This document shows positions 18,006 to 44,417 of a stretch of DNA of 55,227 nt, piece after piece. Below the pieces are notes generated by a model, which searched no databases, was not told the origin of the DNA, and saw only the letters and a list, made by a program, of their open reading frames with translations. The translations under genes were made by a program, and so were the position numbers. Within the stretch, counting starts at the first letter, position 1. Every line of letters starts with the position of its first letter. Origin of the DNA: a virus; IMG/VR virus record IMGVR_UViG_3300020455_000017, positions 1-55,227 of that record; one strand, written 5' to 3'.

Positions 18006-21000
18006 TTATCCTATTTCAGGATCGACGAATTCTTCTCCATAAGCACTTAAGTCAGGAGCAGTCCAATCGTCAGGGACTGAGGTTTCAACTGCGATACCTG
18101 GAGTTTCATATCCAGATCCAGGATTACTTATTTCAACACCACCAACACCAACTAGTGCCTTGATAGAACCCTCAAAACCAGAGATCGAGTCAATTCTTAC
18201 TGTTGGTCTAGAAGTATATCCAGATCCACCAGCAGTAACTTGGACTGTATCTATGAACCCTTGGGTTATTGCTGCTGATCCTTGAGCATCCTTACCAAAG
18301 ACTGATCCAAGATAGTCGAAGGTGATTAAGGAGTTTGATGATTCAATAACAGCAACTTCTCTGGAGTCTGTCTCACCTTGGATGTCAATAAAGTCACCTG
18401 GTTCGACTGGAGGTACAACCTCAGCAGCATCAACGTCTGCCTCAGAACCAACGTAGGAGAAGGCAACGAATGTCGATCCCACACGAGGAATTTCAGAGAA
18501 GATAATTCTAGAACCAACAATTTCAAAACCAATTCCAGGTTCCTGAAGAACACCGTTAAGCGAAACAAGAATATTGTTTTCTGGACGTATGGTAGAAGAT
18601 TGAACACCTTCTGTTAGTGTTAGTGAGTAGAATACATCATTACGTTTAAGGTTGAATGACTGACGTAAGGAGTCGAACTCGAAGGATATATCATCCAACT
18701 GTCTCAACTTACCTACGTAGAACCCTGTAAATGATGCTCCTAGATCTGGTGCTTCTGTAAACTGTATAGTGTCTGAGAACGCTGTATATGCGTTTGCAGC
18801 ACCTGGAGGTTGCAGAATACCATTAACGAATACCAATAGGTGTCCAGCAGGATCTGGAAGGTATGAAGTACCATTCTGTTGTGTTAACTTGAATGATGTT
18901 GTAGTACCATCAAATCCTTTAAATGCTCTCTTCACACGTGCCTTGAGATCAACCTTAGTCAATATGATTGACTCGTAACTTTCAGGTCCAACAATTGCAT
19001 CCTTAAGATCAAATGTTCCAACTATGTCTGAAAGATATAATCTCTTATTAACACCACTAACTCTAATATCTTGTACTTGTGCTGCAGCAGCACCAGGTGT
19101 CACAACCCTTGTACTTACAGTTGCGTAACCAATTGGATTTGATTCAAGTCCATAATCACCAATGAAGTCACCTAGAGCAAATGATCCAGCGTATTCAGTC
19201 ACGTATATGTAATTATTATCAAGATCCAATTCAGTTATATAACCAAATGTGTTTGTATCTTGAATACCAGCATTTACCTTATAAATCTTATTTCCAACAG
19301 TAAAGTTATTCAATCCACTAACAATAGCAATTTGTAATCTAGTGTATCCAGTAGAAGCAATTCTACTACCAATACCAATATCAAGACCAGCAAATTTAGA
19401 AACTTCGATATACTGTCTAGAATTTTCAGGATAAACAACACACGTGGTTTCAAATGTTCCATTTAATGTTTCAGTATCAACTGTCAATGTACCACCAGTA
19501 TTTGTAAGTACAGCAGCATCAGTCTTAATAAATCCTGTAGGAGTTGCAGTAGCACCACTTGTATATCCTTTGAATGGGATATCATTAACGAATGAACCCT
19601 TAAGATCAATAATTTGAATTCTACTTTCTATTGCACTAATTTGAGCAGTTGTTGAGTTTGTAGCACCAACAAGTGTGTCTGTAATTGCCCAAGGACCAGC
19701 AGTTACACGTACATCTAAGTACTTGTAGTTTTCATCCTGATGGAATCCGTAAACAACACCAGTAATAGATGGAGCACCTTGTTTAGTGACTACCTCATTC
19801 ATACTGAACGGACCATCGGTAATATCACCATCAATTCTAAATCTTTGGTATGCTTGTACTACCCTACCCTCGTTCATGGTAATATCTTCTAGTTCTGCAT
19901 AAGCATCACTAGTTAAACCATATAAGAAGTCTGCAGATTGGAGTCCACCACCAACACCAGCAGGAATGGAACGTGTACCATAGGTTAATGTTGGGATACT
20001 AAGTCCATTGACTTGTGCTATTCCTGTGTAATAAGTATCTTGCTTTAATTGCTCACGTAAAAGATTTAAATTAGATCTTACAATACCACTAACAGATCTC
20101 TTATCATACTCGGCAGCTGCTGGTATACTAAAGAACTTAAGGAACGTAGAACTTGGACCAGGTGAGGTTAAAGTATCATCTAGTGCCTGAAGAGTATATT
20201 CTTCAAGACGATCTAGTGCGTAGTTCTTAATATTAAATTCTGCATCAGCAAAGAATACCTTACCATCTACAGATGTATAAGGATCTAATGCACCTTTATT
20301 GAGTTTTGCACCCCAAACATAAGCACCATTACTATTATTACCTGCATATATTTGAGCATTGTTAGTGTCGTTAATGATAATTTCTGCTTGTAAAGCTGAG
20401 AAACCAAACGAGAATGTAGCGGTGATATATGCTCTATACCAACCATCACCGTAAGGAACAACTCCATATGCGTCTCCTGTAACACCACCTTGAGGTGTGA
20501 ATAGAGATCCAATAACTCCATTAGTCAAGTTAAGATCAAAGAATACTCTTTGAACACCAGACTGACCTTCATCTAAATCTAGTTGTATACGACATCTATT
20601 AAGTTCACCCGCCTTAATGAATACTGACCATGTATATGTTTGAGTTGACTGGTTAGTAAGAGAACCTTCGTCAAACTTATTATTAGTATCGTCAAACTTA
20701 ATAACACCATCATCCCATGTATCAGAAGAACTTAAAGTATAATTTCTAATGATTGAGTGTAGATCATTATCTGCGGTAGATACAATCTTTTCGGCAGTAG
20801 GAGTTGCATCTGGTGATGTGATAGCATCTTCAGTAATAAACATCTTATTACCAGACCAATCAAGAGTGAATGCTTCTGGATTTGCAAATAAGTTAACTCC
20901 AGAAATTTGACCACTAATATTAGAAGTAATCAATCTAGCAGTTGCAAGTGTTTTAACATTTGCTGGATTGTTATAGTAATGATAATCATCACTAACTCCA

Positions 21001-24000
21001 CCAACGCTAATATCAGCAACAGCACCAGAAACTGATCCTTCAATGAGATCTACACCTTTCCACATACTGCCAGTGAAGGTTCCTACAATTAATAAGTTTG
21101 TATCAGCAACAAACTCAAGGACTATAGCAGTTCCATTATTATTAGAGCGAACCGTTTCACCCTTAACAAATACACCTATAACATTTTCAATTGTAATTGA
21201 ACGACCTAACTGATTATCTAATGTGTTGGTTACGATAGTGTCATGAACTAAATCGTCAACAACTTCATCTAAGAATGTATCATAAGTCCATGTTCCAGAA
21301 CCAAACTGAGAATTTACAAGGTTTGTAATTTCTTGCTTATAATAGTTTCTATTATAAAGAATATTCTTCGCAGCACCTCTACCAGTTTTTCTGCTAGGAG
21401 CAAGAATATTAAGAGCAAAATCTACAAGTTCGTTAAATCTTGTTGTAACATGAAGGATATTTGGTGGATTAAATGAATCTTGGAATGCAGATTGAGATGT
21501 GAACTGTGCAGCATATTGATCACCAACTGTTGTATGTCCAACGTTGAATAATCTATTTCTAATAGCATAATCACCAAGTTCTTTCAACTGCTCTATAGCA
21601 TATAGAGTTGGTAGTAATTCTTTCTCAACATAACTGATTGATAATGTAGAAGTTAGATATTTTTCAATAGCAGCAACTGTACTATTATTTCCACCTGTTT
21701 GTAAATCAGATATCATACTAACAATGATTAGTTTGAGATCTCTTCGGCAAGTTGCTTCACCAGTAGCACCAGGATAAGTGAATGCTGAATAGTTTATACC
21801 ATTTAAAGTATATGTAAATTCTGCAGTAACTCTATTTGTTATCTCTTCAGCAATGTAATCTCTGTTGAAGTAAAGTCTATCAGCAGCAACACCGAATGCT
21901 TCTTCTGTAGGAGCAATAATATCATTAATTGTATTAACTAAAGTATCAATTGCATCTTGAACATTAGCACAATCACCAGGAACTATGACAGAATTAGTTG
22001 TGGCAGATACAAATGTATGTGTATTAGCATTACTGATAGGACCTTGACCACCATTTACATTAACAGTAATTGTTGTTGCTGTTTTTGAAGTAATTGCAAG
22101 ATTGGTATTGTATGCATAGTCTGCACCAGTTGCTGTATTTGCACCTATTGATCTAGGATATGTTTTATTAACAGCACCAGATCCTGTGTTACATGAGAAT
22201 GTAAGTCCGTTCTCAGCAAGTTGGATCATTCTACCAACTGCAAGAGTATGAGATCCAATTGTTAGAACTAAATCACCAGTTGTATAATCATAAGTTGCTC
22301 CAGTAGGAGTAAATGTTCCTGTAGTAGGATCTTGAGTGATATCCCAGTCACCAACAATAATCTTATCTGTATTTGTACCACTTAAGTTACCAATGATTGC
22401 CTGTTTCATATAGAAACCTAGACGTTCATGAGCATATGCAGATTGGAATACTTGTAATCTAATATGTACGAGAACATCATTTGTTCCGAGATACTGTTTA
22501 GCAACATTAACAGAGTTGAGGTTACCACCATCTTCAATATCTTTGATTATTTCTTCAGCAATAAGTATCAAGTCTGTCTTACACCTGAGAGTACCATCAG
22601 TAGATGTACCATTAGCATTTCTAGGCATATCCAAAGCAAGATCTGGATATCTACTGAGCATATCAGCAGATGCCTTATCAATAATAGGACCGAGGTTAAC
22701 ACGTATTAAGTTTGCAGCATCACGGAACCTATACTGTGTATCAAGATCAATCTGATTAGCGTAGATCTGATCATCTGTACTATTATGATAAGAAACTGGG
22801 AATGGAACTTCATAGTATGTTCCTACTTTACCACCAAGGAATTCATAGTCTGGTTTAGACCTAGTTACAGCACCTAGATGATCTACAGGAGTTGCTAAAT
22901 TAGCAGCATTGAGTGTATCAGTTAAGATATTAATTAAGTTCTCAATGTTTGTTTGAACATCAGTGCAATCAGCAGTATTATGGTTAAGAAGTTTAATGGA
23001 ATTAGTAATACTAGAAACAAATGTATGTGTTGTTGATATCTTCTTAATAGAACCAGGATCTGCACTTACGAAAGTATGTGTTGATTGTGGTGTATAAGAA
23101 ACAGCATTTGAAGCAGCAGTTACAAATGTATGAGTATAAGCACCACCAGTACTCAATACTGCTCTAGTAATACCATTTGCAGTAGCAGATACGAATGTAT
23201 GTGCAGTTAAGTTTGTTGATGGAACTTGATCTAGAACCTGAACATCAAATGTATTAGTTTGTACATTAGAAATTGTTAACCATCTATTAGATACAGGATC
23301 AGTTGGGCGTGGATATGAATGATTAGTAGCATTACTATCTTGAGCACATGTGAATGTTAATGAATTATCAGCAATCTTGATATGCTCACCATTAATCATT
23401 CCATGACCATTAGATGTAATAGTCATTACACCTGTAGTTGGATTATAAGCAGCAGTACTTGCAGTGTAAGTATTATTAGTGCTTTGGAATGCATGAGTAG
23501 TGGTGTTAGAAGATGTACCAACGTTAAGTGTAACTGTATTAGAAGTTACAGAAACAATTGCTACAGCATCATTATATGCTGGATCATCAGCAGTTGCACC
23601 ACTTTGACCATTTGCACGAGGATAAGAGTGATCAGAAGCTTGACCATCAGCATCACAACGGAATACGAGTGAATTATTAGCAATCTTGAGAGATGTGCCA
23701 GATGTAAGACTATGCTCACCAATGGTTAGAACTAAAACACCAGTGGAAGGAGTGAATACAGCGTTAGAAACATCATATCCCTTAATTGGAGATGCACCAA
23801 CATTAACCGTAATTACACCACTTTGTTTGCGAAGACCTTTAGTTGTAGCAGATTTGAATACATGAGTGGATGTATCTGAAGATACACCGACATTAATATC
23901 AAAAGTATCAGTTGCTGCACCAGCAACAGCGAACCATCCACCACTTGCACGATCAAATCCAGTTCTAGGATATGCATGATCTGTGGTATTGCCATCTAGT

Positions 24001-27000
24001 TCACATCTAAATGTTATTGAATTATCTACAATCTGAACATAATCACCATTAGAGAAACCATGACTAGGAATGGTTATCGTTAACTTACCAATACCAGGAC
24101 TGTAAGTGGCATTAGTAATTGTATGATGTGTATGTCCTATATGTGTAACAGGGATAGACTTAAGATTACCATATGGGTCTGTTGATCTTGGATATTGCTT
24201 ATTAGAAGATCCTCCATTCATTGTGCAGTTGAATGTCAAACCAGCATTAGCAATAGTAACACTTGAACCCTTCTTCATACCATGTTGACCAATAGTCAAA
24301 GTCATGTTACCTGTCTCAGCATCATAAGTTGCTGCAGAAGGTGTGAATTGAGCGTTAGTACCAGCAGAACCAACATTAACAGTAACTGTTCCTGTTTGAC
24401 TCTTAAGTGCTCCACTAACTGCAGAAACAAATTGATGCTGAGATGTATCAGAAGAAACACCAACATTTACTCTGAATTGAGTTGTGGTTACATTTCTTAC
24501 TTCGATCCACTTATCAGCAACTGGATCTGTTGATCTTGGATAATCATGGTTAGTAGCATTACTATCCTTAGCACATGTAAATCTTATTGCATTAACATCA
24601 AACTTAACCATGTCACCTTCAGATAATCCATGATTAGCAACTGTCAATAACAATTCGCCTATTACAGGATTATAATCAGCAGCAGTTATTGTATGTGAAG
24701 TTGTACCAACAGCAGTGATAGCAACAGGTCTTCCAGAAGCACGAGTATCATGTAATGAACGAGGATATGCTTTAGGAGACTGATTATTATCCATCGTGCA
24801 AGAGAATTTCAATGATTCATCTTCAATTAAAACACTGTCACTTGTAGTCAAAGTGTGCTTACCAAGTGTAAGAACCATATTACCGTTTGAAGGATCGTAT
24901 GTTGCTGCAGTTGGTGTATAAGGTGTATTTTCTTCATTTGCAAGAGACTTACCTACGTTTACAGTAAATGTATTAGTATCATATTTTGTAATTGCTAACG
25001 CAGAATTATAAGCAGGATCAGTCTTACGAGGATAAATGTGCTTAGTTGCATTATCATCAATATTGCACTTAAGTGTTAGACCTTCTGGTTTAATTGTAAT
25101 TGCTTGTCCTTGCTTCTTAATACCATTTGCAATTGCAGACTTAAATGTATGAGTATAAGCACCACCTGTCTTAAGAGCAGATCTTACTACACCACCACTA
25201 GTAGCAGATACAAATGTATGTGTATCAGTGTTTGTAGAAGGTGCTGTTTCTAGAACTTGAACATCGAATGTATTAGTAGCTACGTTAGATATTTCTAACC
25301 ATTTACCACTAGAGAAATCAGTTGCTCTTGGATATGCTTTTTGTGCAGCAGTACCAGATGCTCCATTGAAACCACAACTGAATGTTAATGATTCGTTGGC
25401 AATTTGAATGAAATCACCATTTTCAAATCCATGACCATTAATGGTCAATTCCATAACACCTGAAGTTGGGTTATAAGATGCATCAGTTACAGAATATGCT
25501 GCTTGAGGAACGAATGTATGTGTATAAACACCACCAACAATTAATGCTCCTTTCTTCGCTTCTACGAAAGCATGAGTTGTTGTGTTGGATGAAATACCAA
25601 CGTTAATTGTAACTGTTCCATCCTGAACCTTAATTCCATTAGAAGTTGCAGATTGATATGAATGAGCAGTATTACCAAATACAGTTTTTCCTACAAATAT
25701 ATCAAATGAATTGGTTTGACTATTAGTAATTGGAACCCATTGATTAGCAATTGGATCAGTAGTACGTGGATAAGTCTTATTAACTGCACCACCACCCATA
25801 TCACAACTAAATGTGATTGAATCTGCGTCTAATTTTACTGAAGCAACTGCCCTTTCAATACCATTAGATGTTGCTGAAATGAATGTATGTGAAGATAGAT
25901 CTTGAGACTTGCCAACATTAACATCAAATGTATTAGTAGTTACGTTAACGATATGTAAGAACTTATTACTTACGGGATCAGTTGAACGAGGATATGTATG
26001 AATAGTTGCATCATAATCCTTAGAACAAGTAAATGTTATTGAATCATCTTTAATTCTTATTCTGTCACCATTTGTAAATCCATGACCAGCGATGGTCAAT
26101 GTTAAAACACCAGTTGAAGGTGTATAAGTTGAATTAGTTACAGTATGCTCAGAAGCACCAGTTAATCCATGACTACTAGAAGTAATGGTTAGAACACCAG
26201 TTTCGGGATTGTATGCTCCACCAGAAGCAGTCTTATTAGAAGTTCCAACAGCAGTGATAGAAACAGAAGTATCAAAAGTCTTGTCACGTTTTTGCTTAAT
26301 ACCAGTTGCTGTACCAGATACAAAGATATGAGGATCTAAGTTTGTAGATGGAATAACATCCAATACTTGAACATCAAATGTAGTAGATGCTACGTTAGAA
26401 ACTTGTATCCACTTACCACTAACAGGGTCAGTTGATCTTGGATAAGTTTTATTGGTTTGATAACCATCAAAGTTGCAATTGAATGTAAGTGAGTCATCAT
26501 CAAATTTAACCCAATCACCATTTCTCATTCCATGAGCAGATGTGGTAGTGATACTCATAATACCTGTAGTAGGATTATAAGATGTACCAGTAGTTGCCTG
26601 ATGTGTATCAATTGTTGTTCTTGGATATGCATGCTCAGATACATCACTATCTTGATCACAAGTAAATGTAACAGCTTCATTCAACAATTTAATATTGTCT
26701 CCTACAACCAAATCATGAGTTCCAAGTGTAAGAACCATGTTACCATCAGCAGGAGTATAAACTGCATTACTGATATCATGAACCAACTTAGGTGACTTAC
26801 CTACATCTAAAGTTACAGTATTATCAACATGGATAAGACCACCTGGATATGCAGACTTAAATGTATGTGTGGATTTATCAGGGGAGATGCCAACATTTAT
26901 TTCAAATGTCTTATCTGTCTTATTAGCAATCTTAAACTGTCTACCAGCATAAGGATCTTTTCCTACTCTTGGATATGCGTGATCGGTATCATTTCCATCT

Positions 27001-33000: not shown

Positions 33001-36000
33001 GAAGTAATTGTCTGTCCTGAAGTAGATGTAATATCAAAAGTTCCTTTATAAGGAGATTCTACAACATCTAAGTAACTACCAGCAACAACAGGGGAATTAT
33101 CTCCTGTTCTAGATGGATCAAAGTAATATGAAATATTAGTAACAATAGTATCATCAATTTTCAATTTAACAGAAGGACTTGGTTGTCCACCACCTGTAAC
33201 ACCAGGAATACCTATTCTTTCAATAGAGTTGAATGAATACTCTAGTTTGTATAAGTTATCCTTAGAGAAGGATAAGTTACCACCTACAAGAGAAGAGTGA
33301 CTTAGGTCAAACAAATACTGATGACCATAGTACATTTTAAGAGTTGGTGACTTAACAAAGATACTTACAGTACCTGCAGATGTTGCAGGGTCAGTAATTG
33401 CAATAGTTGGTAATTTATATGTAAATTCTAAAGGACTTACTATAGTATCTACAGCAAATGCACCATCATACTCATCATAAACAGTACCACCAACAGTCTG
33501 TGATGGGTTACCATCAACATATAATATTTCACCCTTATTCAAATAATGACTTGTTGCTGTGATAACATACACTTCATTAGTATTAGCAACAGCAGTTACT
33601 TGAAGTGTCTTATTTAAATTAGCAGTTAACGTAATCTTAGTAACTGCAGTTAGACCTGTAACTTGAGCAGTTGTATATGTTGCATTGAATGAAATATTAC
33701 TAGCAGCAATATTAACTACAGATCCAACAATAAATGGTGACCCACCAGCAACTTCCTCAATTTTAACTGAATAATCAGCAACTAGGAATGGTTTGAACTT
33801 AGCAAATCCATCTAGGTTCTGACCACCACCAGCATTATAACCAGTGCCATCTAAATTATAATCATCTAAATCTATGTCAAAAGTACCAGGAGTGGTATTG
33901 TTGACCATTGAGAAAACATAATTTTGTATAATATTAGTATCATTTGGAATTGGTCCTACAATACCATAAGTACTTTGCTCATTAAACTGTTCTGTAACTA
34001 ATTTTCCAGTATTTAAATCATCTGTCCAAGCATTATTATTAACAGCAAGATATACCTTATTATTAACAGTATCTGTCTTGATTATGTAACCACTATTAAC
34101 AAATGTACCAGAATCATTATTCAATCTTAATTTCGCACCAACGGTGAAGTTGAATGCCTGATTTACAGTTAATTCTTGAATATTATCAATTTTAATTGTA
34201 TTTGTAACCTTAAAGAAATAACGATCTTTAACTACAGCAGATACCTTAAGTTTTTGAGAACCTGGTGAAGGTACTGTTGCTGTTCTGGAACTCCATGTAT
34301 CCTGAGTGTAAGTTAATGTCTCAGTATCTTGAAGAAGTGTTATAGTTGCATCATCATAATCTAATGACTGCAATCCAGCAGATGCTAAAGATATTCCAGT
34401 TGTTGTAACAGTTAATACACTTCCAGTTACAGGACTTACAGCAGTTCTAGTAAATCCAATTTGAGTATTGGTTTGAGTACTTTGAGTACCAATCCTTGCA
34501 GCATCAGCATCTTTATCAACTTTTAATCCCCAACCAACATAATCGATATAATCATATCTGTTTAGATTAGTAGTGAACCATGAAGTATCATTCCAACTAT
34601 AACTTAATGCAAAAGTATCAGTTGGAGGTAAGTTCTGAATATCATTAGGAACTGTTGGTACAACTGCTCCATTTCTAAGTCTAATATTATCAATATAGAA
34701 TTGTCCTTGTCTTTCTTTCTTAAAGTCTCCAGCACCAGTACCCCAACCTACTTGGTTACCAAAGTATAGTGTTTTAGCACCTAGAGCAGTATTAGAAATA
34801 ATACCAGTAATTACCTGAATACCATTGACATATACTTTGAAATCATTACCTTCTTTCTTAACACCAATAACTTGCCAACTATTATTAGCAAACATGTTGG
34901 TTTGTGTAGATTCTACTGGTGTAGCACCACTTAATGCAGTTGAATTATTAGTTGCTGCAAATTGCAACTTACCAGAACTCATATCATATCCTAACCATAA
35001 TCCACCAGTAGCATCTTGTGCTCCACCGATACCAAATAGAGTTTGATTAGTTTGTGATAAAGTTTGAGATTCTGAACTTACTCTATGAATAAAGAACTCT
35101 AAAGTCCAATCATTTGCTAATTTTGTACCTAAAGCAGAAGAAGAAATATCAAAGTAAGAATTTACCCAAGAACTATTAAGACCAGCAGGATTATAACCAT
35201 AAATCTTAGCAAGATTACCAGCAACAGTAATTGAATTAGTTGCAGAAGTAGTATTGAGTGTATAATGTCCTGTTACATCGGTAGTTGCATTAGAAGCAAA
35301 GTCGAATATAAATTCATTTCTATTGTAATTGGTTTGACCATAAAGATGAATATCACCTGAATTATCAACATCTAATGAGTGTACAGTAAGACCTTCTACG
35401 TTATCATTAGTAAATGAATTTGTACTATGGTTCTTAAGTTTACCATCATAACCAATTTTAACTGAATCTACAGTCTTAAAAGTGTTTGTATTATTTGTTC
35501 TAGTAAATGCAATGTTTAAATCACCAAAAATGTCAATGACAGATTTCTTAGCAAGTGATATATCTCTACCTGGAGTAACATAACGATAGTTCCATAGTAA
35601 ATCTCCTGTAGAATCTACTTTACCTACCCAGAAACTATCTCTAGTAGTATCATCAGATTTAAGTCTTAAAGTTGATGTGAGATAGATTTCATTAAATTCA
35701 TCAATACATATGCTTGTATCAAGAGTAGAATAAAGAACATTTGTGTATTGCTTAATCCAATCAACTGTAAATGCATTTACCCCAAGTGTTATCTTAGCAA
35801 TGGCAGGATTAACATCTCCTTCAGTGGAAGTTGTAGCAACTTCCATACACAAGTAGATATCTGTACCATTAACAATTAGATCTGTAATTTTCTCGGATGC
35901 ATTAGTAGTTGCTAATTTTCTCTTAATAGCAAAATTACCTGTAGTGTCAATAGATGCAATCCAAGCATCGAAAGGAGCACCTGAGTTAGTATTGGTATAA

Positions 36001-39000
36001 CCAGCAATAATGAAACGAGTATCTGAATATTTCTTAAGTGAAGTTACATAATCAGCACGAGTAGAACCTGAAATACCAGCATATCCTTTCTGGAAAGTTA
36101 ATGCAGCACTTAGACCATTTTCTGCTTGTGTGTATTTTGCTAAGATTATATCAGGGTTATATGCTGATAGCATATTACCATTTGGTTTATTACCACCAAC
36201 TACCCATATACTATTACCATCAACAAAAATTTTCTGGAATTCTGTATAATTTTGACCTGTATTACTTTCTAAAGTTCTTTCCCATTGCTTAACACCAGTT
36301 GCTGAAACTTTAGCAATAAAAGCAACTTGATTTCCACTAGCATCCTTAGTCATACCACAAAGGTATGATTCTTTATTATCTGCTACATGAACATCATTAA
36401 TTTTAACATAACTGTTATTTGATATCTTAGAGATGTAGTAATCTGCTTTTTTAAAGATCTGTGGGTGAGTTAGGATAACTCTAGGGTTCTTAGTATAACC
36501 AGATCCTGAATTTATGATATTAATAGTATCAATAGATCCTACAGAACTAACAGTAGCTTCTAATTCTCCAGATGATCCATCACCATCAATAATAACTGAT
36601 GGAGGAATGTCAGTATTATATCCTGATCCTGTTTGGTCAATAACAATTTGCTCAATACCTTTAAATTGACGAACAATAAATGTCTTATTGGTATTCGCCA
36701 TTATAGGTGTATAATCTACAAATACCTGATCGCCAGCAACAATATTGTGAGGTATAGAAGTTTGTAGAACACCAAAATTGAATCCACTGATATTTTCAAA
36801 TGTGTAAGCAGAAACTGTTTCACCTTTAATTCTAGAAACACGTGCAGAAACACCAGATCCATCAGTATCTGTATTATCAAATACAAGACGATCATCTACC
36901 TGATAGTTTTTACCTGGGTTTTCAACTGTAAATCCAGTAACAGATGCATCTTCAAATTTAGTAGTAGTCTCAACTTCAATATCAACTTTAGAGTCAAATT
37001 TAACTTTAGGGAAGTAATCAAAGAGTTGTAAAGGAGATTCCTCGAACATTTGTCTTGGTACTTCATCAGATTCGATAACACCATCACGGTTATCATCCTC
37101 TGCATCAAATAAGAGAATATCACCATTCTCCATAGTTAATGCATTTGATGCTGCGTTTGGAGTTCTTTCAACATCAATATCAACATTCTCATATGGGTCT
37201 CTATATCTAACAACACCAGTAGGAATGTTCTGTTGAATAGCATTAGGAGTTAAGTTCCAAGTATCAACAACAGAGTTGTAACTAGGACCAATAACATAAG
37301 GGAATAGTGGATTACCATCCTCTGTAGCATCAATAGTTACGAAATATACATATCTACCATCTGGGAAATCGGGTGTCTTACAAAAACGTCCATTATATTG
37401 ATCTAAATCACCTAAACCAAAGACATACTCATAATCTTCAACAAAATTACCAGAAGCCTCATCTGTTATAAGAGGACCAGCAGTTCTAGAAGGAAATGGG
37501 TTGTTAGTTGCATCAAAGACTAAATTTGTCTTTAATCTGTATGATGTGTTTAATTTTGTAATAGTAGAGGTTTGATCAGTAGGATCAGTGTATCCATAAG
37601 GTCCATATATCGGATTACCATCAAATGCCCAACCAATAATAGGTGAGTGTGCTAATTGTGTCTCTTGCTCCTTAATAGCACCATCAGTATTTTGGAATAA
37701 GTTATCACCAAGAATATATCTTAATTTCTGAGGATTGGATAAGTGAGCATATTCACCACCATATTCGTTGTTATAACCTTCAAATACAGCACCTTTCGCA
37801 GCATCGAATGTTGATGTTGCTTGAAGGTTGTAAGTCCACTGGAACACAGATGGTGTGAAAGTAGCTTCAGATCCAATAGAAGTTAAGTTAATAAGTGTAG
37901 TTCCTTGAACATAGTTAATACCCTTATTAATAATCTCAATATTAGTTACTCTTCCAGCATTTTCTCCATCAGTGTCAATAGTTGCTCTAGCAATAGCACC
38001 AAATCCAACACCTTGAATAGTTACTTCAGGTGCAGTAGTATATCCAGATCCAGCAGAAATGATAGCAATAGATATAATTCTACCATCATTAACGATTGCT
38101 TGTGCAACAGCACCACTACCAGAACTTAGACTTACTGTTGGTACTGAGGTATAAGATGCACCACCACTTGTAATAGCAACAGTTTTAATAGGACCACGAA
38201 CAGATGCCGTAGCAGTTGCACCAGATCCGCCACCTCCAACAATTGTTATTTGAGGTTGTGAAGTATATCCAGAACCACCATCGTTAATTAAAATACGTGA
38301 AACAACTCCTTTGGTAATAATAGCAGTTGCAGCAGCACCAGCACCATTACCACCGACTATAGACACCAATGGTGATGATGTGTACCCAGAACCCCCTGCA
38401 GTGACTGTGATCTCAGAGATAGAACCATCAACAGTTACACTTGCAGTAGCACCACTACCTCCACCACCATCTATTGTCATAGCTGGAGGAGAAGCAGCAT
38501 CATATTCTTTACCTGCTGTAGTAATTGAAATTGCAGTTAAAGCACCAAAAGTTTTAGTTAATTTAGACTTATAAGACCATATAGAAACACCGTTTACCCA
38601 TGTACCAACAGGTACATTACTTGATATTAGGTTTTTAGTTGAAATTGTCTGTGAAGTTTTAGGGAACCTATTTAATTTACGTTGGTTACCTGGAAGAAGT
38701 GCAGATCCTGGAAAAGGTCCAATTTCATAGTTTGGAATACCTGTAGAAGCAACATACACATGGGTATCATTGAAAAATGTATTCTGGACGTTAGTTGTAT
38801 ATGGTCCAATAACATTTAAAATAGCAGTATTATCCGACTTACCTTTATTAAGGTCAACAGATACAAGAATATTACCTTGAGGTACAACTGTAGCAGGTTG
38901 AGGTAATTGATACTGGAAAACATTCGCAGTATCTCTAGATGTTACAAAGAAGGATCCGTTGTAGATAATGGGGTTAGCACCATATACAGTTACCTGATCA

Positions 39001-41930
39001 CCAACAAGAAGACCATGAGCATTAGCACATGTAACAGTTGCAGATTGATTATTAACACCACCATAAGTGATAGATGTCACAGTAACCAACTTTTTAACGT
39101 TATATAACCAAGTTTTTAAGTCTGCTCCTTCGCCAGTACCACCTAACTTAGAAACAGTTAGTTTATCACCTGGTAAGTAGTAAGATCCAGTATCTGTCAG
39201 TGTTGTTTGTTCTGCATCAACAATACCAACAATATTCATCACAACTTCTTGAGAAGTCCCTTTATTGACATACACTGTGAAGTTTGATGCTATTCCAGTA
39301 GCAGAATCCCAATCTTCAACAACACCATTTACAGAACGAGTACATTCTATAAACTGGTTAAGTGATTTTTCCTTATATTGTACAACTTCTGCTGTAGCAC
39401 CTGTACCTATGACAAATTCACCGTTTCTTTCTGGCCAACCAATTGTAGAGTCAACAGTGATGATACCAGCAGTTGCAGTTAATGGTTCAGCAAGTCTTGT
39501 CTTATAAGGTACTGTGAACTTTCCTACAATAGTTTCTTCTGATAAAACTAACTCAAATATCTCTGTTTCTGATGTTTTAATAGAAATAAAGTTTTCTATT
39601 AAAGCACTTGCTGCTAATACATTAGTATCTGCAATATCAGCATCTTGAGTTAATAGACCATCTCTAATATTATCAGGATTACCACTAACTAAAGTTGCAC
39701 GAAGAATGGTGTCAATTGACCAAGTAGCATCAGAAGGTTTGATTATTTGGTCTTTTGGATAAGAAATACTTACAGTTTCACCGTATAGTAACTTAAATAA
39801 GTAAGCAATACTATAAGAAGTACCTTTAGATGAATAGAAGTCCTTAATTGTCTTAATAGAGTTTCTAACATCAATTTTTGTATAATCTAAACTAGGAACA
39901 TCAGGTAAGAACTGTTCTGTGTACTTATCAAGTAATCTTTTAACAAATACAGCATCTAGACACTTAACAGTAGTTTCTTTAGTTGCAGCAGACGCAACAG
40001 TGTTATTAGAGAATACTGCATTACCATCTTCAGTATATTCTTTAATTGCACTCGCTGCTCTAGCACATCCTTCAAATTGTGCTTTAGTATATCCAGAACC
40101 AGCCTGATTTACTGTAAATCCAGTAACTTCATTTAAACCAATAGTAGCAGAAGCTTCTGCTGAAGGTGGTGACTGAATTATGATTTGAGGAGGTGTTACA
40201 GCACTATACCCAGTACCAAAATTGGTAATGTTGATATCAATGATCTGACCATTGAAAATCGATGCTGTAGCAGTTGCTCCAGTACCACCAATATAAACTC
40301 CTAGATCATTTACTCTATCATCTACAATATAAACAGATGGGGTATCTTCATATCCACCACCACCACTTAAAATCTCAATATTGATAACACGACCATCACC
40401 ATCAACCGATGTTTGAAGAATTTGAGCACCAACTGGGTCAATAATTGCTATTCTAGGTACAGTTTCATATCCTTGACCAGCATTTAGTATAGTAACACCA
40501 GTAACCTTACCATCTGTTAAAACTGCTCTTAAATTTGCTTTAATTGGGTTAGAACCAGTTGGTTCATCAACATAAATGGTTGGAACCGTTGTATATCCTT
40601 GACCAGCAGTAGTAATTGGTACAGTACCAGTTATTTGACCGCTAGAAATAGTTGGAGCACCTAATATAGCACCTCCAGGTTGTAAGAAAGTAAGTCTAGG
40701 AGTAAAAGTATACCCACTACCAGAATTGGTAACTTCAAGTCCAGAAACCTCACCATTAGTAACAGTTGCCTTAACAGATGCTACACTAGATCCAGTTTTA
40801 GTTGGAGTTTGAATAACAACAGTAGGTGGGTTAGTATCACTATAACCTTTACCACCATCTAGAAGAGCAACACTCTTAATACCATTAACTAAAGCAGTTG
40901 CAGAAGCACCACTACCAGTATCCGAGTTAATAGAAACTTTTGGTGGATATTCATACCTGTAACCAGTACCATTTGCATTAATTGCAATACTAGTGATATT
41001 ACCAGTATCATCAACACGAGAATATCCTACAGCATTAGAACCAAAAGAAGGAATAGGTGCCTCAATAGCGTATACTGATAATGCTCTACCATTTAGAGGA
41101 GCAGTTTTAAATATAAACTGGTCATCATCAAGGAAGAAGTCTACTTTAGGTATTAAAAGTTTATTATCATATACAGCAATAACATATTCAGTAATTTCTG
41201 GTGCATATCTTACACCATTTCTAGTTAAAGTAAATTGTTTCTTACTATCACCAAATGTATTAGAAATATTATCCGTTCCAACAATAGTATTCTCAACAAA
41301 ACCACTCAAATAAGTGATATAAGTAAAACTTTCACCATCTGATGCTAATTTTAGTCTAGGAGCAGTTGTAAATACAATATTGGTTCCACTAACAGTATAA
41401 TCAGTATTTGGAATTAAAGTTTCACCATAAACACTAACAATCAAGTGTTGTGCAGAAGGAGGAGCAACTGGATTGTTCTGTGAAGTTAATGGGAATGATG
41501 TAGTTGTGCCATCAAAAGATTTAAGTGGATTTGCAAGACCAGTCCACTTTAATTTTACCTGATCATATGAAATACCTGGACTTAATGCTATATTTGGAGC
41601 AGAAGTCGTTTTCTCGTAATATATTACCTCATCGCCTATCATTACTGATCCATTCTTCTCTAAGAATGCATCAATTGTTTCTACTACTATCGTTTCATCA
41701 GTTGCTTTTACATCTTCTACTACCTTAGTCGCACCATCAAGGATACTAATATCCAACTTATCAATATCCAGATATTGAAGAAAATTGTTAAGTAAATTCT
41801 GACCTAAACCCGTTTTTTCTTGTGATCTATAGTAATATTCAACAAATTTGTTGAATAGTTTATAGTCACTCCTGATAAACTCAGGTGTTTGGGCATTAAT
41901 TGCCTGAGAAACCTTATTGATATTTGTCAT
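18006..41930 (-). CDS. Giant 7974 aa baseplate-associated virion protein (gp7 position)
   Basis: One uninterrupted frame of 7974 codons in the place that gp7 holds in T4 (after gp25 and gp6, before gp8). Approximate residues: helical N-terminus 1-80; Gly/Tyr repeats 300-620; a conserved helical segment 686-720 (IKDFYSSKGTSYSIAYLFKL) like that of long cyanophage gp7-type proteins; more repeats 1120-1330; YHYH domain 1400-1560 (WAFDGNPIYGPYGY); beta-propeller-like repeats 1830-2200; LamG-like domains 2210-2430 and 4050-4240; 19 'YPR' repeats 4313-6604; three helical modules near 4380-4500, 6320-6510 and 6650-6910; a carbohydrate-binding-like beta-sandwich 7010-7240; NGVLQxPG modules near 7670-7830; and a final Gly/Tyr repeat. 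The gp7 role of the N-terminus is inferred; the remainder looks like host-contact decoration. Confidence 0.85.
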   Translation of the reverse strand: MTNINKVSQAINAQTPEFIRSDYKLFNKFVEYYYRSQEKTGLGQNLLNNFLQYLDIDKLDISILDGATKVVEDVKATDETIVVETIDAFLEKNGSVMIGDEVIYYEKTTSAPNIALSPGISYDQVKLKWTGLANPLKSFDGTTTSFPLTSQNNPVAPPSAQHLIVSVYGETLIPNTDYTVSGTNIVFTTAPRLKLASDGESFTYITYLSGFVENTIVGTDNISNTFGDSKKQFTLTRNGVRYAPEITEYVIAVYDNKLLIPKVDFFLDDDQFIFKTAPLNGRALSVYAIEAPIPSFGSNAVGYSRVDDTGNITSIAINANGTGYRYEYPPKVSINSDTGSGASATALVNGIKSVALLDGGKGYSDTNPPTVVIQTPTKTGSSVASVKATVTNGEVSGLEVTNSGSGYTFTPRLTFLQPGGAILGAPTISSGQITGTVPITTAGQGYTTVPTIYVDEPTGSNPIKANLRAVLTDGKVTGVTILNAGQGYETVPRIAIIDPVGAQILQTSVDGDGRVINIEILSGGGGYEDTPSVYIVDDRVNDLGVYIGGTGATATASIFNGQIIDINITNFGTGYSAVTPPQIIIQSPPSAEASATIGLNEVTGFTVNQAGSGYTKAQFEGCARAASAIKEYTEDGNAVFSNNTVASAATKETTVKCLDAVFVKRLLDKYTEQFLPDVPSLDYTKIDVRNSIKTIKDFYSSKGTSYSIAYLFKLLYGETVSISYPKDQIIKPSDATWSIDTILRATLVSGNPDNIRDGLLTQDADIADTNVLAASALIENFISIKTSETEIFELVLSEETIVGKFTVPYKTRLAEPLTATAGIITVDSTIGWPERNGEFVIGTGATAEVVQYKEKSLNQFIECTRSVNGVVEDWDSATGIASNFTVYVNKGTSQEVVMNIVGIVDAEQTTLTDTGSYYLPGDKLTVSKLGGTGEGADLKTWLYNVKKLVTVTSITYGGVNNQSATVTCANAHGLLVGDQVTVYGANPIIYNGSFFVTSRDTANVFQYQLPQPATVVPQGNILVSVDLNKGKSDNTAILNVIGPYTTNVQNTFFNDTHVYVASTGIPNYEIGPFPGSALLPGNQRKLNRFPKTSQTISTKNLISSNVPVGTWVNGVSIWSYKSKLTKTFGALTAISITTAGKEYDAASPPAMTIDGGGGSGATASVTVDGSISEITVTAGGSGYTSSPLVSIVGGNGAGAAATAIITKGVVSRILINDGGSGYTSQPQITIVGGGGSGATATASVRGPIKTVAITSGGASYTSVPTVSLSSGSGAVAQAIVNDGRIISIAIISAGSGYTTAPEVTIQGVGFGAIARATIDTDGENAGRVTNIEIINKGINYVQGTTLINLTSIGSEATFTPSVFQWTYNLQATSTFDAAKGAVFEGYNNEYGGEYAHLSNPQKLRYILGDNLFQNTDGAIKEQETQLAHSPIIGWAFDGNPIYGPYGYTDPTDQTSTITKLNTSYRLKTNLVFDATNNPFPSRTAGPLITDEASGNFVEDYEYVFGLGDLDQYNGRFCKTPDFPDGRYVYFVTIDATEDGNPLFPYVIGPSYNSVVDTWNLTPNAIQQNIPTGVVRYRDPYENVDIDVERTPNAASNALTMENGDILLFDAEDDNRDGVIESDEVPRQMFEESPLQLFDYFPKVKFDSKVDIEVETTTKFEDASVTGFTVENPGKNYQVDDRLVFDNTDTDGSGVSARVSRIKGETVSAYTFENISGFNFGVLQTSIPHNIVAGDQVFVDYTPIMANTNKTFIVRQFKGIEQIVIDQTGSGYNTDIPPSVIIDGDGSSGELEATVSSVGSIDTINIINSGSGYTKNPRVILTHPQIFKKADYYISKISNNSYVKINDVHVADNKESYLCGMTKDASGNQVAFIAKVSATGVKQWERTLESNTGQNYTEFQKIFVDGNSIWVVGGNKPNGNMLSAYNPDIILAKYTQAENGLSAALTFQKGYAGISGSTRADYVTSLKKYSDTRFIIAGYTNTNSGAPFDAWIASIDTTGNFAIKRKLATTNASEKITDLIVNGTDIYLCMEVATTSTEGDVNPAIAKITLGVNAFTVDWIKQYTNVLYSTLDTSICIDEFNEIYLTSTLRLKSDDTTRDSFWVGKVDSTGDLLWNYRYVTPGRDISLAKKSVIDIFGDLNIAFTRTNNTNTFKTVDSVKIGYDGKLKNHSTNSFTNDNVEGLTVHSLDVDNSGDIHLYGQTNYNRNEFIFDFASNATTDVTGHYTLNTTSATNSITVAGNLAKIYGYNPAGLNSSWVNSYFDISSSALGTKLANDWTLEFFIHRVSSESQTLSQTNQTLFGIGGAQDATGGLWLGYDMSSGKLQFAATNNSTALSGATPVESTQTNMFANNSWQVIGVKKEGNDFKVYVNGIQVITGIISNTALGAKTLYFGNQVGWGTGAGDFKKERQGQFYIDNIRLRNGAVVPTVPNDIQNLPPTDTFALSYSWNDTSWFTTNLNRYDYIDYVGWGLKVDKDADAARIGTQSTQTNTQIGFTRTAVSPVTGSVLTVTTTGISLASAGLQSLDYDDATITLLQDTETLTYTQDTWSSRTATVPSPGSQKLKVSAVVKDRYFFKVTNTIKIDNIQELTVNQAFNFTVGAKLRLNNDSGTFVNSGYIIKTDTVNNKVYLAVNNNAWTDDLNTGKLVTEQFNEQSTYGIVGPIPNDTNIIQNYVFSMVNNTTPGTFDIDLDDYNLDGTGYNAGGGQNLDGFAKFKPFLVADYSVKIEEVAGGSPFIVGSVVNIAASNISFNATYTTAQVTGLTAVTKITLTANLNKTLQVTAVANTNEVYVITATSHYLNKGEILYVDGNPSQTVGGTVYDEYDGAFAVDTIVSPLEFTYKLPTIAITDPATSAGTVSIFVKSPTLKMYYGHQYLFDLSHSSLVGGNLSFSKDNLYKLEYSFNSIERIGIPGVTGGGQPSPSVKLKIDDTIVTNISYYFDPSRTGDNSPVVAGSYLDVVESPYKGTFDITSTSGQTITSGPDTFKFLLANEPEGNASISQTSYSTSSVKAVGSINAIRIVNPGGFYTKLPVVTGISSTRKIERATIEEPGTEYAVGTYNGVPITGDGEGGLVQITVADGLDDDGITIPGQINAVVITSAGKGYTTASIDIDSVAGILGSGLTGSGAKVNVIIPPFGTEASIFTKGDKVGKIKKLKNNNFGYDYPHDYTLRPEITFPLNAQLTSTSILSSITVTNPGSGYSLAPAVIITGGGGSGATAESSIKNGRLDNIVVKDPGAGYSSTPTISLRSSFNYVVNLDLGLLQFAYPHGIVNGAAVSVAVTDTGDGADFPLAAGAIGRLNATTTYYAIAGATNSLEGDQLKLAITASNAALGDAISFVNAGEGRQSVLTESFGGAAEANVITSTFLEGELVYQGDTLDVATATGYVSTNSGWQIGPRILKIVDYTGTFANGQKITGVISKSSGTISDLKVARGVLEIGSITKTTGQFIDDVGKPSEIIQKIQDSYYYQDFSYAVKSAVSISDWKEILIRNVHPASFKVFGELNLNEYGQIPNKDTFFQLTKSVELAQEAIVPNIQNFALVEPIYTEFNNTEVLFRQKRLTSSENILTSVVQRIDDISNLFDGQKIAFPLTVNGNNVVANANQLMIVLNGVVQNPETSFNIQSDSIVFSEPPSPPASVKYANITVSQIQTVAFEFTNISGIFPNIGNPLVGSSTNARLIVTNVTGNTVSGYITEGTFVIGELVSVGATGFSALLASNTAVSNIGLFTFGENVTNLTGDIAKVEQINLATGQETPAAQLRYAVGPSTTSIEVIPYGGASLSPVTAGTFVATQNYQFGSEIFLVNSITDNADSTTLGVSRGQVGTQAVAQQENTPVYSTVIAVTNALTLSKTAGTYKSTPGLFDIQLNDIIIGSKSGVVASVASTSAYQDPTTNEFIGQVNISPGSSFFGLLFNRITSSSYPNVVLDNISQSQVNVVDFTDNLTAFDSKFPANELINNYVIPYDNAVGSIVQDEYVRNYRINYGNNVGDFTSSEDGRVRKLSFYDKQGTGFFNNGQIIRTRDTKAEVIGYSQARDIVYLGKIGRTQSNGEDYYKFTFSEDAKLDTTQKKFGLTSLELAAADYISTPSTTEIAFGSGVFTVDLWIRPATASLSGNVDIFDTRSSGATEVAGRLYLATGQPRWHVNGSDLVTTSTTLTADTWVHIAIVRVSTTTKIYINGTEAGTATDNSSYIAKPIRIGADYAGANGFTGHVDELRISNTSRYTTAFTAPNGIYQGDANTKLLLHFEGIDGGVHVEDWSGVESFTAGEYFNNDSIIDTVRKVAGKHTWAGGTANNAIRITGGVEKDVTDATYNPNTGDLVLTIGSHSYTTSNTITIKPNSLTFTCAKDNNATNHTYPRVTDPAYGATLAISAETATTITVNVGIANRGFVGNTQRYINAGDLITSNLDFIAKEVVYLINQKFPNFTVIGGNVNCEDDVRDVCKAIVFDIQNGSNSKIWDAASYYVNRADVNNVQLLNVEKEIIETVWAYGKLDEILDFIVTNSLWDVQGDHGLTQKTDTSITDSTTSSFTEITPTNVVYSAATGDLKITKSSHGFVGPSALTATGATYNPATGILEITSNSHGLLNGDKVQLEDDSLTFTCSMDENRSTHTYPRSSDHASQGWLSVQNKQTNTFQLDVGKTPNVGFQPSAATYDAESGLLTMDIGEHRLRAGTNVKLAKESLSFTCDMDDDFTTKKYPRTTDPVYNDSIPILYEGSRHTITFATYTPSSGKMVLTCGKQFSVTDAAYVPTTGVMTLTVPNHGLTVNDQIKIVNNSIVFTCAMDDHTTDHSYPRSTDPQSDKRLSLSNITTNTFDVNVGTTPAVNFTPGAGTTYNPATGDLVLAIGTHSLSVGDGIRIADNSLTFTCNYNGDGNSTQKTYPRSSGENGTAGGASNNTGTPDPAYQTSVYITGTTSTTITVNVGTSSDTSTHVFVTANSNAIVTGGDYAHIFQYAVPNGITYDNHRFENGDKVRLLDNSLTFTCQLDGNDTDHAYPRVGKDPYAGRQFKIANKTDKTFEINVGISPDKSTHTFKSAYPGGLIHVDNTVTLDVGKSPKLVHDISNAVYTPADGNMVLTLGTHDLVVGDNIKLLNEAVTFTCDQDSDVSEHAYPRTTIDTHQATTGTSYNPTTGIMSITTTSAHGMRNGDWVKFDDDSLTFNCNFDGYQTNKTYPRSTDPVSGKWIQVSNVASTTFDVQVLDVIPSTNLDPHIFVSGTATGIKQKRDKTFDTSVSITAVGTSNKTASGGAYNPETGVLTITSSSHGLTGASEHTVTNSTYTPSTGVLTLTIAGHGFTNGDRIRIKDDSITFTCSKDYDATIHTYPRSTDPVSNKFLHIVNVTTNTFDVNVGKSQDLSSHTFISATSNGIERAVASVKLDADSITFSCDMGGGAVNKTYPRTTDPIANQWVPITNSQTNSFDIFVGKTVFGNTAHSYQSATSNGIKVQDGTVTINVGISSNTTTHAFVEAKKGALIVGGVYTHTFVPQAAYSVTDASYNPTSGVMELTINGHGFENGDFIQIANESLTFSCGFNGASGTAAQKAYPRATDFSSGKWLEISNVATNTFDVQVLETAPSTNTDTHTFVSATSGGVVRSALKTGGAYTHTFKSAIANGIKKQGQAITIKPEGLTLKCNIDDNATKHIYPRKTDPAYNSALAITKYDTNTFTVNVGKSLANEENTPYTPTAATYDPSNGNMVLTLGKHTLTTSDSVLIEDESLKFSCTMDNNQSPKAYPRSLHDTRASGRPVAITAVGTTSHTITAADYNPVIGELLLTVANHGLSEGDMVKFDVNAIRFTCAKDSNATNHDYPRSTDPVADKWIEVRNVTTTQFRVNVGVSSDTSQHQFVSAVSGALKSQTGTVTVNVGSAGTNAQFTPSAATYDAETGNMTLTIGQHGMKKGSSVTIANAGLTFNCTMNGGSSNKQYPRSTDPYGNLKSIPVTHIGHTHHTITNATYSPGIGKLTITIPSHGFSNGDYVQIVDNSITFRCELDGNTTDHAYPRTGFDRASGGWFAVAGAATDTFDINVGVSSDTSTHVFKSATTKGLRKQSGVITVNVGASPIKGYDVSNAVFTPSTGVLVLTIGEHSLTSGTSLKIANNSLVFRCDADGQASDHSYPRANGQSGATADDPAYNDAVAIVSVTSNTVTLNVGTSSNTTTHAFQSTNNTYTASTAAYNPTTGVMTITSNGHGMINGEHIKIADNSLTFTCAQDSNATNHSYPRPTDPVSNRWLTISNVQTNTFDVQVLDQVPSTNLTAHTFVSATANGITRAVLSTGGAYTHTFVTAASNAVSYTPQSTHTFVSADPGSIKKISTTHTFVSSITNSIKLLNHNTADCTDVQTNIENLINILTDTLNAANLATPVDHLGAVTRSKPDYEFLGGKVGTYYEVPFPVSYHNSTDDQIYANQIDLDTQYRFRDAANLIRVNLGPIIDKASADMLSRYPDLALDMPRNANGTSTDGTLRCKTDLILIAEEIIKDIEDGGNLNSVNVAKQYLGTNDVLVHIRLQVFQSAYAHERLGFYMKQAIIGNLSGTNTDKIIVGDWDITQDPTTGTFTPTGATYDYTTGDLVLTIGSHTLAVGRMIQLAENGLTFSCNTGSGAVNKTYPRSIGANTATGADYAYNTNLAITSKTATTITVNVNGGQGPISNANTHTFVSATTNSVIVPGDCANVQDAIDTLVNTINDIIAPTEEAFGVAADRLYFNRDYIAEEITNRVTAEFTYTLNGINYSAFTYPGATGEATCRRDLKLIIVSMISDLQTGGNNSTVAAIEKYLTSTLSISYVEKELLPTLYAIEQLKELGDYAIRNRLFNVGHTTVGDQYAAQFTSQSAFQDSFNPPNILHVTTRFNELVDFALNILAPSRKTGRGAAKNILYNRNYYKQEITNLVNSQFGSGTWTYDTFLDEVVDDLVHDTIVTNTLDNQLGRSITIENVIGVFVKGETVRSNNNGTAIVLEFVADTNLLIVGTFTGSMWKGVDLIEGSVSGAVADISVGGVSDDYHYYNNPANVKTLATARLITSNISGQISGVNLFANPEAFTLDWSGNKMFITEDAITSPDATPTAEKIVSTADNDLHSIIRNYTLSSSDTWDDGVIKFDDTNNKFDEGSLTNQSTQTYTWSVFIKAGELNRCRIQLDLDEGQSGVQRVFFDLNLTNGVIGSLFTPQGGVTGDAYGVVPYGDGWYRAYITATFSFGFSALQAEIIINDTNNAQIYAGNNSNGAYVWGAKLNKGALDPYTSVDGKVFFADAEFNIKNYALDRLEEYTLQALDDTLTSPGPSSTFLKFFSIPAAAEYDKRSVSGIVRSNLNLLREQLKQDTYYTGIAQVNGLSIPTLTYGTRSIPAGVGGGLQSADFLYGLTSDAYAELEDITMNEGRVVQAYQRFRIDGDITDGPFSMNEVVTKQGAPSITGVVYGFHQDENYKYLDVRVTAGPWAITDTLVGATNSTTAQISAIESRIQIIDLKGSFVNDIPFKGYTSGATATPTGFIKTDAAVLTNTGGTLTVDTETLNGTFETTCVVYPENSRQYIEVSKFAGLDIGIGSRIASTGYTRLQIAIVSGLNNFTVGNKIYKVNAGIQDTNTFGYITELDLDNNYIYVTEYAGSFALGDFIGDYGLESNPIGYATVSTRVVTPGAAAAQVQDIRVSGVNKRLYLSDIVGTFDLKDAIVGPESYESIILTKVDLKARVKRAFKGFDGTTTSFKLTQQNGTSYLPDPAGHLLVFVNGILQPPGAANAYTAFSDTIQFTEAPDLGASFTGFYVGKLRQLDDISFEFDSLRQSFNLKRNDVFYSLTLTEGVQSSTIRPENNILVSLNGVLQEPGIGFEIVGSRIIFSEIPRVGSTFVAFSYVGSEADVDAAEVVPPVEPGDFIDIQGETDSREVAVIESSNSLITFDYLGSVFGKDAQGSAAITQGFIDTVQVTAGGSGYTSRPTVRIDSISGFEGSIKALVGVGGVEISNPGSGYETPGIAVETSVPDDWTAPDLSAYGEEFVDPEIG
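22120..28990 (-). repeat. 19-copy 'FxC...YPR' protein-coding repeat array
   Basis: Inside the giant gene, 19 units share a core of the form S-L-T-F-x-C-x-x-D-x(4-6)-H-x-YPRxxDP, then a strand like TNTFDVNVG and often THxFVSA. The YPR codons fall near 28880, 28115, 27857, 27575, 27312, 26970, 26621, 26438, 25990, 25757, 25329, 25029, 24760, 24537, 24189, 23965, 23622, 23310 and 22151. Spacing is variable (about 180-770 nt) because linkers such as YNPTTGVMTITSNGHG differ in length and order. Copies are diverged, so they are old duplications rather than recent slippage. Each unit keeps one Cys. Confidence 0.85.
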
Positions 41931-44408: not shown

Positions 44409-44417
44409 TTATTTATG
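44409..44417 (-). promoter_or_regulatory. T4-type late promoter candidate for gp25-gp6
   Basis: The minus strand reads CATAAATAATAA, 27-35 nt upstream of the gp25 start; the TAA within it is the stop codon of the oxygenase gene (44413-44415). Core identical to the sites at 3056-3065 and 12342-12350. Confidence 0.55.

Follow-up and report, generated by a model that had tools for sequence, protein, structure and literature searches.

A cyanophage homologue of the T4 baseplate wedge protein gp7 with a split core and a variable array of predicted barrel units

In bacteriophage T4, gp7 is present in six copies in the baseplate wedges, where it contacts gp6, gp10 and gp53. Among cyanophages, the records of S-RIM8, P-HM2, ACG-2014f and P-SSM2 already name a gene gp7 or baseplate wedge initiator, and passages of a genome comparison place gp7 under the non-cyanophage core (PMC3037559). 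Passages of the same study report T4-GC969 in S-SM1 virions, among 41 proteins detected with multiple peptides by mass spectrometry (Sullivan et al. 2010, PMC3037559), and part of another paper states that cyanophage tail-fibre genes can be recognised by homology only with difficulty, if at all (PMC2993671). Here we consider a 55,227-base linear viral record, analysed over its whole length and called the window below. In it, a very large virion protein of ocean phages can be linked to the wedge initiator, and its most variable part located. We found no earlier description of the split core or of the array classes in the open-access literature.

A giant frame in a baseplate operon

On the minus strand of the window, a single uninterrupted frame of 7974 codons (18006..41930) runs from ATG to stop with no internal stop and takes up 43% of the record. 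The sequence-only reading had reported one frame without stop or frameshift, and this was borne out by the ORF check and by a second IMG/VR contig (3300030104_002385; 92,749 bases), in which the same 23,925-base gene differs by 6 mismatches and 2 amino acids, without any indel, so that the gene is not an assembly join peculiar to one record. Two relatives with 70% and 66% protein identity are open over their full length (7938 and 8114 codons), and the two overlapping pieces of the protein that were searched (residues 1-4000 and 3801-7974) each match PHROG_701, a profile of length 6136 named virion structural protein, with an E-value of 0. By our own estimate (about 105 Da per residue), six copies would amount to about 5 MDa.

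NG86 dN/dS ratios against these two relatives were computed in 20 of 21 segments for G011 (one having too few codons) and in 21 of 21 for G027, and all lie below 1 (0.04-0.57), which fits a translated protein; they are approximate, synonymous distances being 0.6-1.9 and some aligned array units maybe not orthologous. The minimum is found at residues 3425-3560 (0.07 and 0.04), the dense array block at residues 4555-6260 gives 0.32-0.57 (perhaps inflated against G027 by the pairing of non-orthologous units), and residues 6650-7000, outside this block, are also high (0.33 and 0.46). At the start of the frame, a perfect 22-base palindrome (41836-41857) holds the codons for LFNKFVEY; it is perfect in 8 of 14 relatives, two of which have the same sequence as the window, and imperfect in the other 6, some of the perfect ones having Ile for Val together with a matching synonymous Asn change.

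The gene lies directly after gp6 in the baseplate cluster, as the T4 order has it. According to Pfam and PHROG, its upstream neighbours encode a PAAR protein, a heme oxygenase, a 2OG-Fe(II) oxygenase and the baseplate wedge proteins gp25 (43963..44382, minus strand) and, directly upstream, gp6 (41936..43963, minus strand). Its downstream neighbours encode the wedge/fibre connector gp9, directly downstream (16743..17969, minus strand), a 1461-aa YHYH baseplate wedge protein (12354..16739, minus strand), the baseplate wedge protein gp8 (10784..12316, minus strand) and a 2390-aa DUF4815 protein. The order PAAR-(...)-gp25-gp6-giant gp7-gp9 resembles T4 5.4-6-7-8-9. By BLASTP (E down to 1e-12), gp8 has one module in common with the giant gp7 and the 1461-aa protein has several, hinting at module exchange inside the operon. 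In place of the heme oxygenase (45028-45663) and 2OG-Fe(II) oxygenase (44413-45024) genes, which separate the PAAR gene from gp25 in the window, S-SSM5 and S-SM1 carry just one small hypothetical gene. Elsewhere, a 1007-aa frame cut by the window end (1-3021) starts with an Mtd_N (major tropism determinant N-terminal) domain.

Proteins of this length had been called very rare in phages, which does not hold for the T4-like cyanophages, where giant gp7-core frames are normal. A tblastn search with residues 1-780 found 478 phage records. The match covers at least 80% of the query in 290, and 455 bear the name Synechococcus, Prochlorococcus or Cyanophage. We searched 26 named records, a non-random choice (15 from the top and spread of the hit lists, 11 by accession; P-RSM1, the record of which starts inside the gene, was excluded): all 25 cyanophages have a gp7-core frame, of 3,007-8,573 codons and of at least 6000 in 16 of them, and the remaining record, Sinorhizobium phage phiM12, has an ordinary gp7 (1007 aa). 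Of these 25, only P-RSM6, with the host Prochlorococcus NATL2A, exceeds 7974 codons (8573). Among 29 IMG/VR contigs, the open frame has 7894-8458 codons in 8 and 6158-6636 in 17, and the positions of the other four frames (6295, 5048, 4431 and 4010 codons) fit contigs that end before the 5' part. The giant gp7 is real and, for cyanophages, ordinary in kind: large, without being the largest.

Three proposed segments of the gp7 core

Using profiles built from 14 sequences, we compared the putative core segments with T4 gp7. Residues 612-790 (39561..40097, minus strand) match T4 gp7 729-760 (hhalign E 1.1e-7), and in the PDB their profile finds T4-type gp7 at E 1.1e-5 and 1.2e-5 (T4 731-759), the next unrelated chain appearing only at E 0.38. 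Residues 3425-3560 (31251..31658, minus strand), where dN/dS is lowest, match T4 gp7 865-889 at E 6.9e-5, an E-value for a single comparison; in the PDB scan gp7 comes second and third (E 0.09 and 0.2), behind a ribosomal protein (0.07). The helical N-terminus, residues 1-120 (41571..41930, minus strand), aligns weakly with T4 gp7 651-675, at the expected place (hhalign E 0.32), and gp7 was not among the PDB matches of its profile. The three segments run in T4 order, and segments 2 and 3 consecutively match positions 173-221 and 235-280 of Pfam PF23786 Baseplate_wedge, segment 3 alone being below the curated cut-off and segment 2 being above it in the 4000-residue piece and 0.7 bit below in the 790-residue piece.

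The PDB profile searches returned no other baseplate protein. By single-sequence BLASTP, T4 gp7 1-645 has no significant match in the giant gp7 or in its 1461-aa neighbour, and the neighbour has no PF23786 match. In an AlphaFold model of residues 1-790, residues 1-66 and 663-790 have a pLDDT under 50; with the core segments at this low confidence, a Foldseek comparison with the PDB yielded nothing down to the E 0.001 threshold, and T4 gp7 is absent from the best 50 matches listed by VIA-align.

From these profile matches, the C-terminal core of T4 gp7 is, in our reading, split into three along the giant chain (about residues 1-120, 612-790 and 3425-3560), the matched parts of segments 2 and 3 being separated by about 2,700 residues as against about 105 in T4 gp7. 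The sequence-only reading had placed a wedge-protein N-terminus at residues 1-720 of a gene in the gp7 position. The position and the kinship with gp7 stand, with two segments matching T4 gp7 and with PF23786, and within the N-terminal part the profile of residues 612-790 does match T4 gp7; the gp7 part is not one block of residues 1-720, and its pieces correspond to the C-terminal part of T4 gp7 instead of its N-terminus. The identification of the frame as a cyanophage gp7 thus appears largely right, and we argue, at the level of sequence, that cyanophages do have gp7, contrary to its listing in the passages of PMC3037559.

Inserted modules and the variable array

The first insertion, residues 121-611 (40098..41570, minus strand), is mostly beta and has no counterpart in P-HM2, P-SSM2, ACG-2014f and S-SCSM2R, in which segment 2 starts at residue 109-138. 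Its residues 215-290 are predicted to resemble phage fibre or spike attachment domains, best that of CBA120 TSP4 (Z 8.1) and, at Z about 7, those of T5 and T7-like tail proteins. An intein or inserted domain near the N-terminus was considered for four relatives (L130, L137, L143 and L164) in which tblastn matches span 3.5 kb for 790 aa, and was rejected: their translated proteins are colinear over residues 1-788 and the spans came from joined internal repeat matches. Syn30 (H87) has a similar split match.

The second insertion, placed by alignments inside the core at residues 791-3424 (31659..39560, minus strand; about 2600 residues), includes a YHYH domain at residues 1362-1535 (37326..37847, minus strand; Pfam PF14240, E 8e-33). 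Searched by sequence against the PDB, residues 791-4059 had no match at E 0.01, and NCBIfam found nothing in residues 1-4000. After the core come a LamG/concanavalin-like domain at residues 4074-4214 (29289..29711, minus strand; Pfam PF13385, E 1e-21), the array, and a spike-fibre domain at residues 7091-7214 (20289..20660, minus strand), which passes the NCBIfam cut-off and is related to the GTA head spike Rcc01080 (E 1.9e-8). The conserved C-terminal region, residues 7420-7973 (18012..19673, minus strand), is 76-80% identical to two relatives, to which the dense array block is 41-67% identical. That modules had been added to gp7 was already proposed from the sequence, and is supported by Pfam for YHYH and LamG and by the profile for the repeats.

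The variable array (residues 4301-6649; 21984..29030, minus strand), with its FxC...YPR motif, comprises 20 matches to an iterated profile, one a 32-aa fragment and the other 19 measuring 60-113 aa, with a dense block at residues 4557-6255. By pattern there are 18 motifs and by the first profile 19 units; this first profile was made from the giant gp7's own units and is therefore biased toward it, and the iterated round shifted the counts in the other 14 phages by at most one. Against S-SSM5, the alignment is one to one over residues 3-4072 (73.5%) and resumes over residues 6645-7973 (59%), and the 1803 extra residues lie between the two stretches, so that the extra length over the closest isolates corresponds to an array of about 20 predicted beta-barrel units. 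No tandem repeat was found in the gene at the DNA level at score 50, hence the array is diverged and not the product of recent slippage. Units are found in further large proteins too, since S-SSM7 (L209, NC_015287) has units in non-core frames of 3001 and 1482 codons and Syn1 (L208, NC_015288) in a 3381-codon frame other than the gp7-core frame.

Among 80 loci, 40 IMG/VR relatives have about 7 kb or more upstream (L036, too short, was dropped), and of these 28 have 0-8 units, 12 have 20-26 and none has 9-19; some matches are fragments of split units, and a long array may have more units than counted if the 10-kb flank stops within it. The division is equally sharp in residues covered by units (0-578 vs 1,620-1,906). 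The 12 long loci include the same virus as the window (L035) and an identical pair (L075, L078), and among named isolates P-RSM6 has about 20 units and P-SSM7 has 13, the latter falling within the gap between short and long arrays, which is thus not complete. On the tree built from 49 rows of the C-terminal region, not settled by bootstrap, explaining the long class takes 4 changes (4-6 in bootstrap replicates), but no more than 1 if well-supported branches alone are counted, and a single origin of long arrays is therefore possible. We matched units of more than 46 residues reciprocally between the window and the 9 long loci that remain after removal of the near-copies L035, L061 and L078. One group (the window, L039, L065, L066 and L110) has 5-19 colinear units per pair and another (L049, L075, L079, L093 and L111) has 5-22, whereas pairs across the groups have 2-5 in common despite alike C-terminal identities (72-81%). 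The grouping is not clean, since the ranges touch at 5 (L039-L110 and L049-L075, both within groups), and P-SSM7 has 1-4 colinear units in common with any of them. This comparison suggests two types for most long arrays, with little colinearity between them; array variation is not described in the open-access literature that we found.

Counted over each whole genome, genes other than gp7 included (E up to 0.001; phiM12 with 0 excluded), units number 6-20 in 10 phages with Prochlorococcus hosts and 0-15 in 15 with Synechococcus hosts (Mann-Whitney p 0.0014, kinship ignored). Hosts follow the host field, so that Syn1 and Syn33, named Prochlorococcus phages, count as Synechococcus phages, and the blank ACG fields were taken as Synechococcus from the names. 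The 10 Prochlorococcus phages include close kin (P-SSM3/P-SSM4; P-HM1/P-HM2/MED4-213), and the Synechococcus phages S-SSM7 (15 units) and ACG-2014f (14) run counter to the trend. In the 40 loci, arrays have fewer units at higher GC (rho -0.69, kinship ignored). Array size is associated with host, and we take this association as a lead.

A two-unit model of the array (47 aligned rows) has a mean pLDDT of 91.5 and a pTM of 0.82. Foldseek found no PDB match for it at E 0.001 (best E 0.0056), the top rows including phi92 endosialidase and ubiquitin E1, and gave 34 matches at E 0.001 among viral predicted structures, those with names being Synechococcus phage proteins except for one uncultured phage. 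With VIA-align, the array unit resembles phi92 endosialidase 255-340 (Z 8.7, 2.5 A, 82 residues), E1 enzymes (Z 8.5) in the region named FCCH in Pfam, and EndoNF 424-508 (Z 8.0, 2.1 A), although according to the program's warning a Z near 8 is common among models without a clear match. Pfam E1_FCCH was found in the giant gp7 at E 0.0027, below its cut-off. The predicted resemblance of the unit to endosialidase barrels and E1 FCCH domains is thus borderline.

Candidate role and comparison with known systems

We consider it probable that this cyanophage gp7 is a wedge protein with its core split in three, the inserted and appended modules of which would form a fringe. By analogy with T4, six copies would nucleate six wedges through the gp7 core, and the beta-rich modules (about 7,500 residues a copy) would project from the baseplate rim. 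With less certainty, the modules may contact host surface polysaccharide reversibly and provide docking for other fibres; the barrel array, which can expand, may set the reach, number or specificity of host contacts. Such an anchor-plus-contact design fits selection that is tightest in the core and loosest, though still purifying, in and around the array. The LamG and Rcc01080-related domains, recognised by sequence, would be modules of surface-binding type, as LamG and GTA-spike domains usually are. A variable fringe that makes host contact is plausible and, in our reading, probable. Endosialidase barrels bind sialic acid; a barrel fold in common does not show sugar binding, and the function is not transferable. 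If the array does bind host sugars, it would offer a testable place for host-range determinants of Prochlorococcus and Synechococcus phages in metagenomes. In S-PM2d evolving with its host, the mutated genes include gp8, a short tail fibre and very large hypothetical proteins, and the passages on S-PM2d in that paper do not mention gp7, which is neutral for the adhesion idea (PMC9910659).

The same gp7 could instead carry its array and modules passively, as a rigid spacer or collar that would steady the rim or keep other fibres in place, with receptor binding left to other proteins, and we give this a substantial chance, somewhat short of even. The attachment-like prediction for residues 215-290 (Z about 7-8) may indicate a dock, the modules in common with gp8 and the 1461-aa wedge protein suit a structural role, and the conserved C-terminus (76-80%) suggests a structural end; against this, few stretches of the protein evolve faster than the array, a fixed structural spacer would not usually range from 0 to 26 units, and LamG and GTA-spike domains usually bind surfaces. 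That the chain is a polyprotein cut after translation, the gp7 core and some fragments staying in the virion, we hold to be improbable: its great length and its separated conserved blocks would suit processing, but the largest insertion splits the core, so that cutting within residues 791-3424 would part core pieces 2 and 3, and T4-GC969, the S-SM1 orthologue (72% identical to the giant gp7), was detected in virions with multiple peptides, the passages of PMC3037559 not telling their location along the chain.

Very unlikely, in our view, is that the frame is not gp7 at all but an unrelated giant tail fibre sharing a short helical motif, the real gp7 lying elsewhere, for instance in the 1461-aa protein. 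Many records do name the gene virion structural protein, structural protein or hypothetical, the match of the first core segment is insignificant (E 0.32), and the passages of PMC3037559 put gp7 under the non-cyanophage core; yet two colinear matches to T4 gp7 and the position after gp6 speak for gp7, and the 1461-aa protein matches neither T4 gp7 1-645 nor PF23786. To an assembly artefact, whether a fusion of adjacent genes or an expanded repeat, we assign next to no probability: repeats commonly cause misassembly, but contig 3300030104_002385, differing by 6 mismatches and no indel, contradicts it, the lack of DNA tandem repeats at the score used leaves little to collapse or expand, and the relatives are colinear. 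Going beyond the preferred reading of an anchored host-contact fringe, there could be a conserved gp7 chassis with interchangeable alleles of a host-contacting barrel array (0-8 units; two poorly colinear classes of 20-26) that are swapped or rebuilt between lineages, the long ones linked to Prochlorococcus-type hosts. We put this forward tentatively, as possible but rather doubtful; if true, an adhesion-length or specificity switch would be built into the wedge initiator and not into a tail fibre.

Compared with T4 gp7 (PDB 5hx2, 5iv5), the giant gp7 has two segments in the same order (T4 729-760 and 865-889) and likewise adjoins gp6, but it has 7974 residues against 1032, no counterpart of T4 1-645 detected by BLASTP, and a core that is interrupted by about 2600 residues and followed by about 4400 more. 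The rhizobial phiM12 gp7 (1007 aa) carries both gp7 segments, at residues 65-137 and 943-1004, about 800 residues apart. The closest isolates are the T4-GC969/PHROG_701 proteins of the Kyanoviridae in S-SM1 (6180 aa) and S-SSM5 (6171 aa), which align colinearly with the giant gp7 at 72-74% identity from residue 3 to about residue 4075, and once more at 59-66% over the last 1330 residues, and are flanked by the same gp6 and gp9 neighbours, the giant gp7 being about 1800 residues longer in the array region (20 units vs 2). The annotated gp7 or wedge initiator proteins of P-SSM2 (5195 aa), P-HM2 (4454 aa), ACG-2014f (4225 aa) and S-RIM8 (6395 aa) have all three core segments in the same order and differ in an array of 0-10 units, the first three also in having no first insertion, so that segment 2 starts at about residue 113-138. 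The endosialidase beta-barrels of phi92 and EndoNF and the E1 FCCH domain show a borderline resemblance to the predicted fold of one array unit; the giant gp7 differs from them in the lack of a significant sequence family match and in the tandem arrangement of its units.
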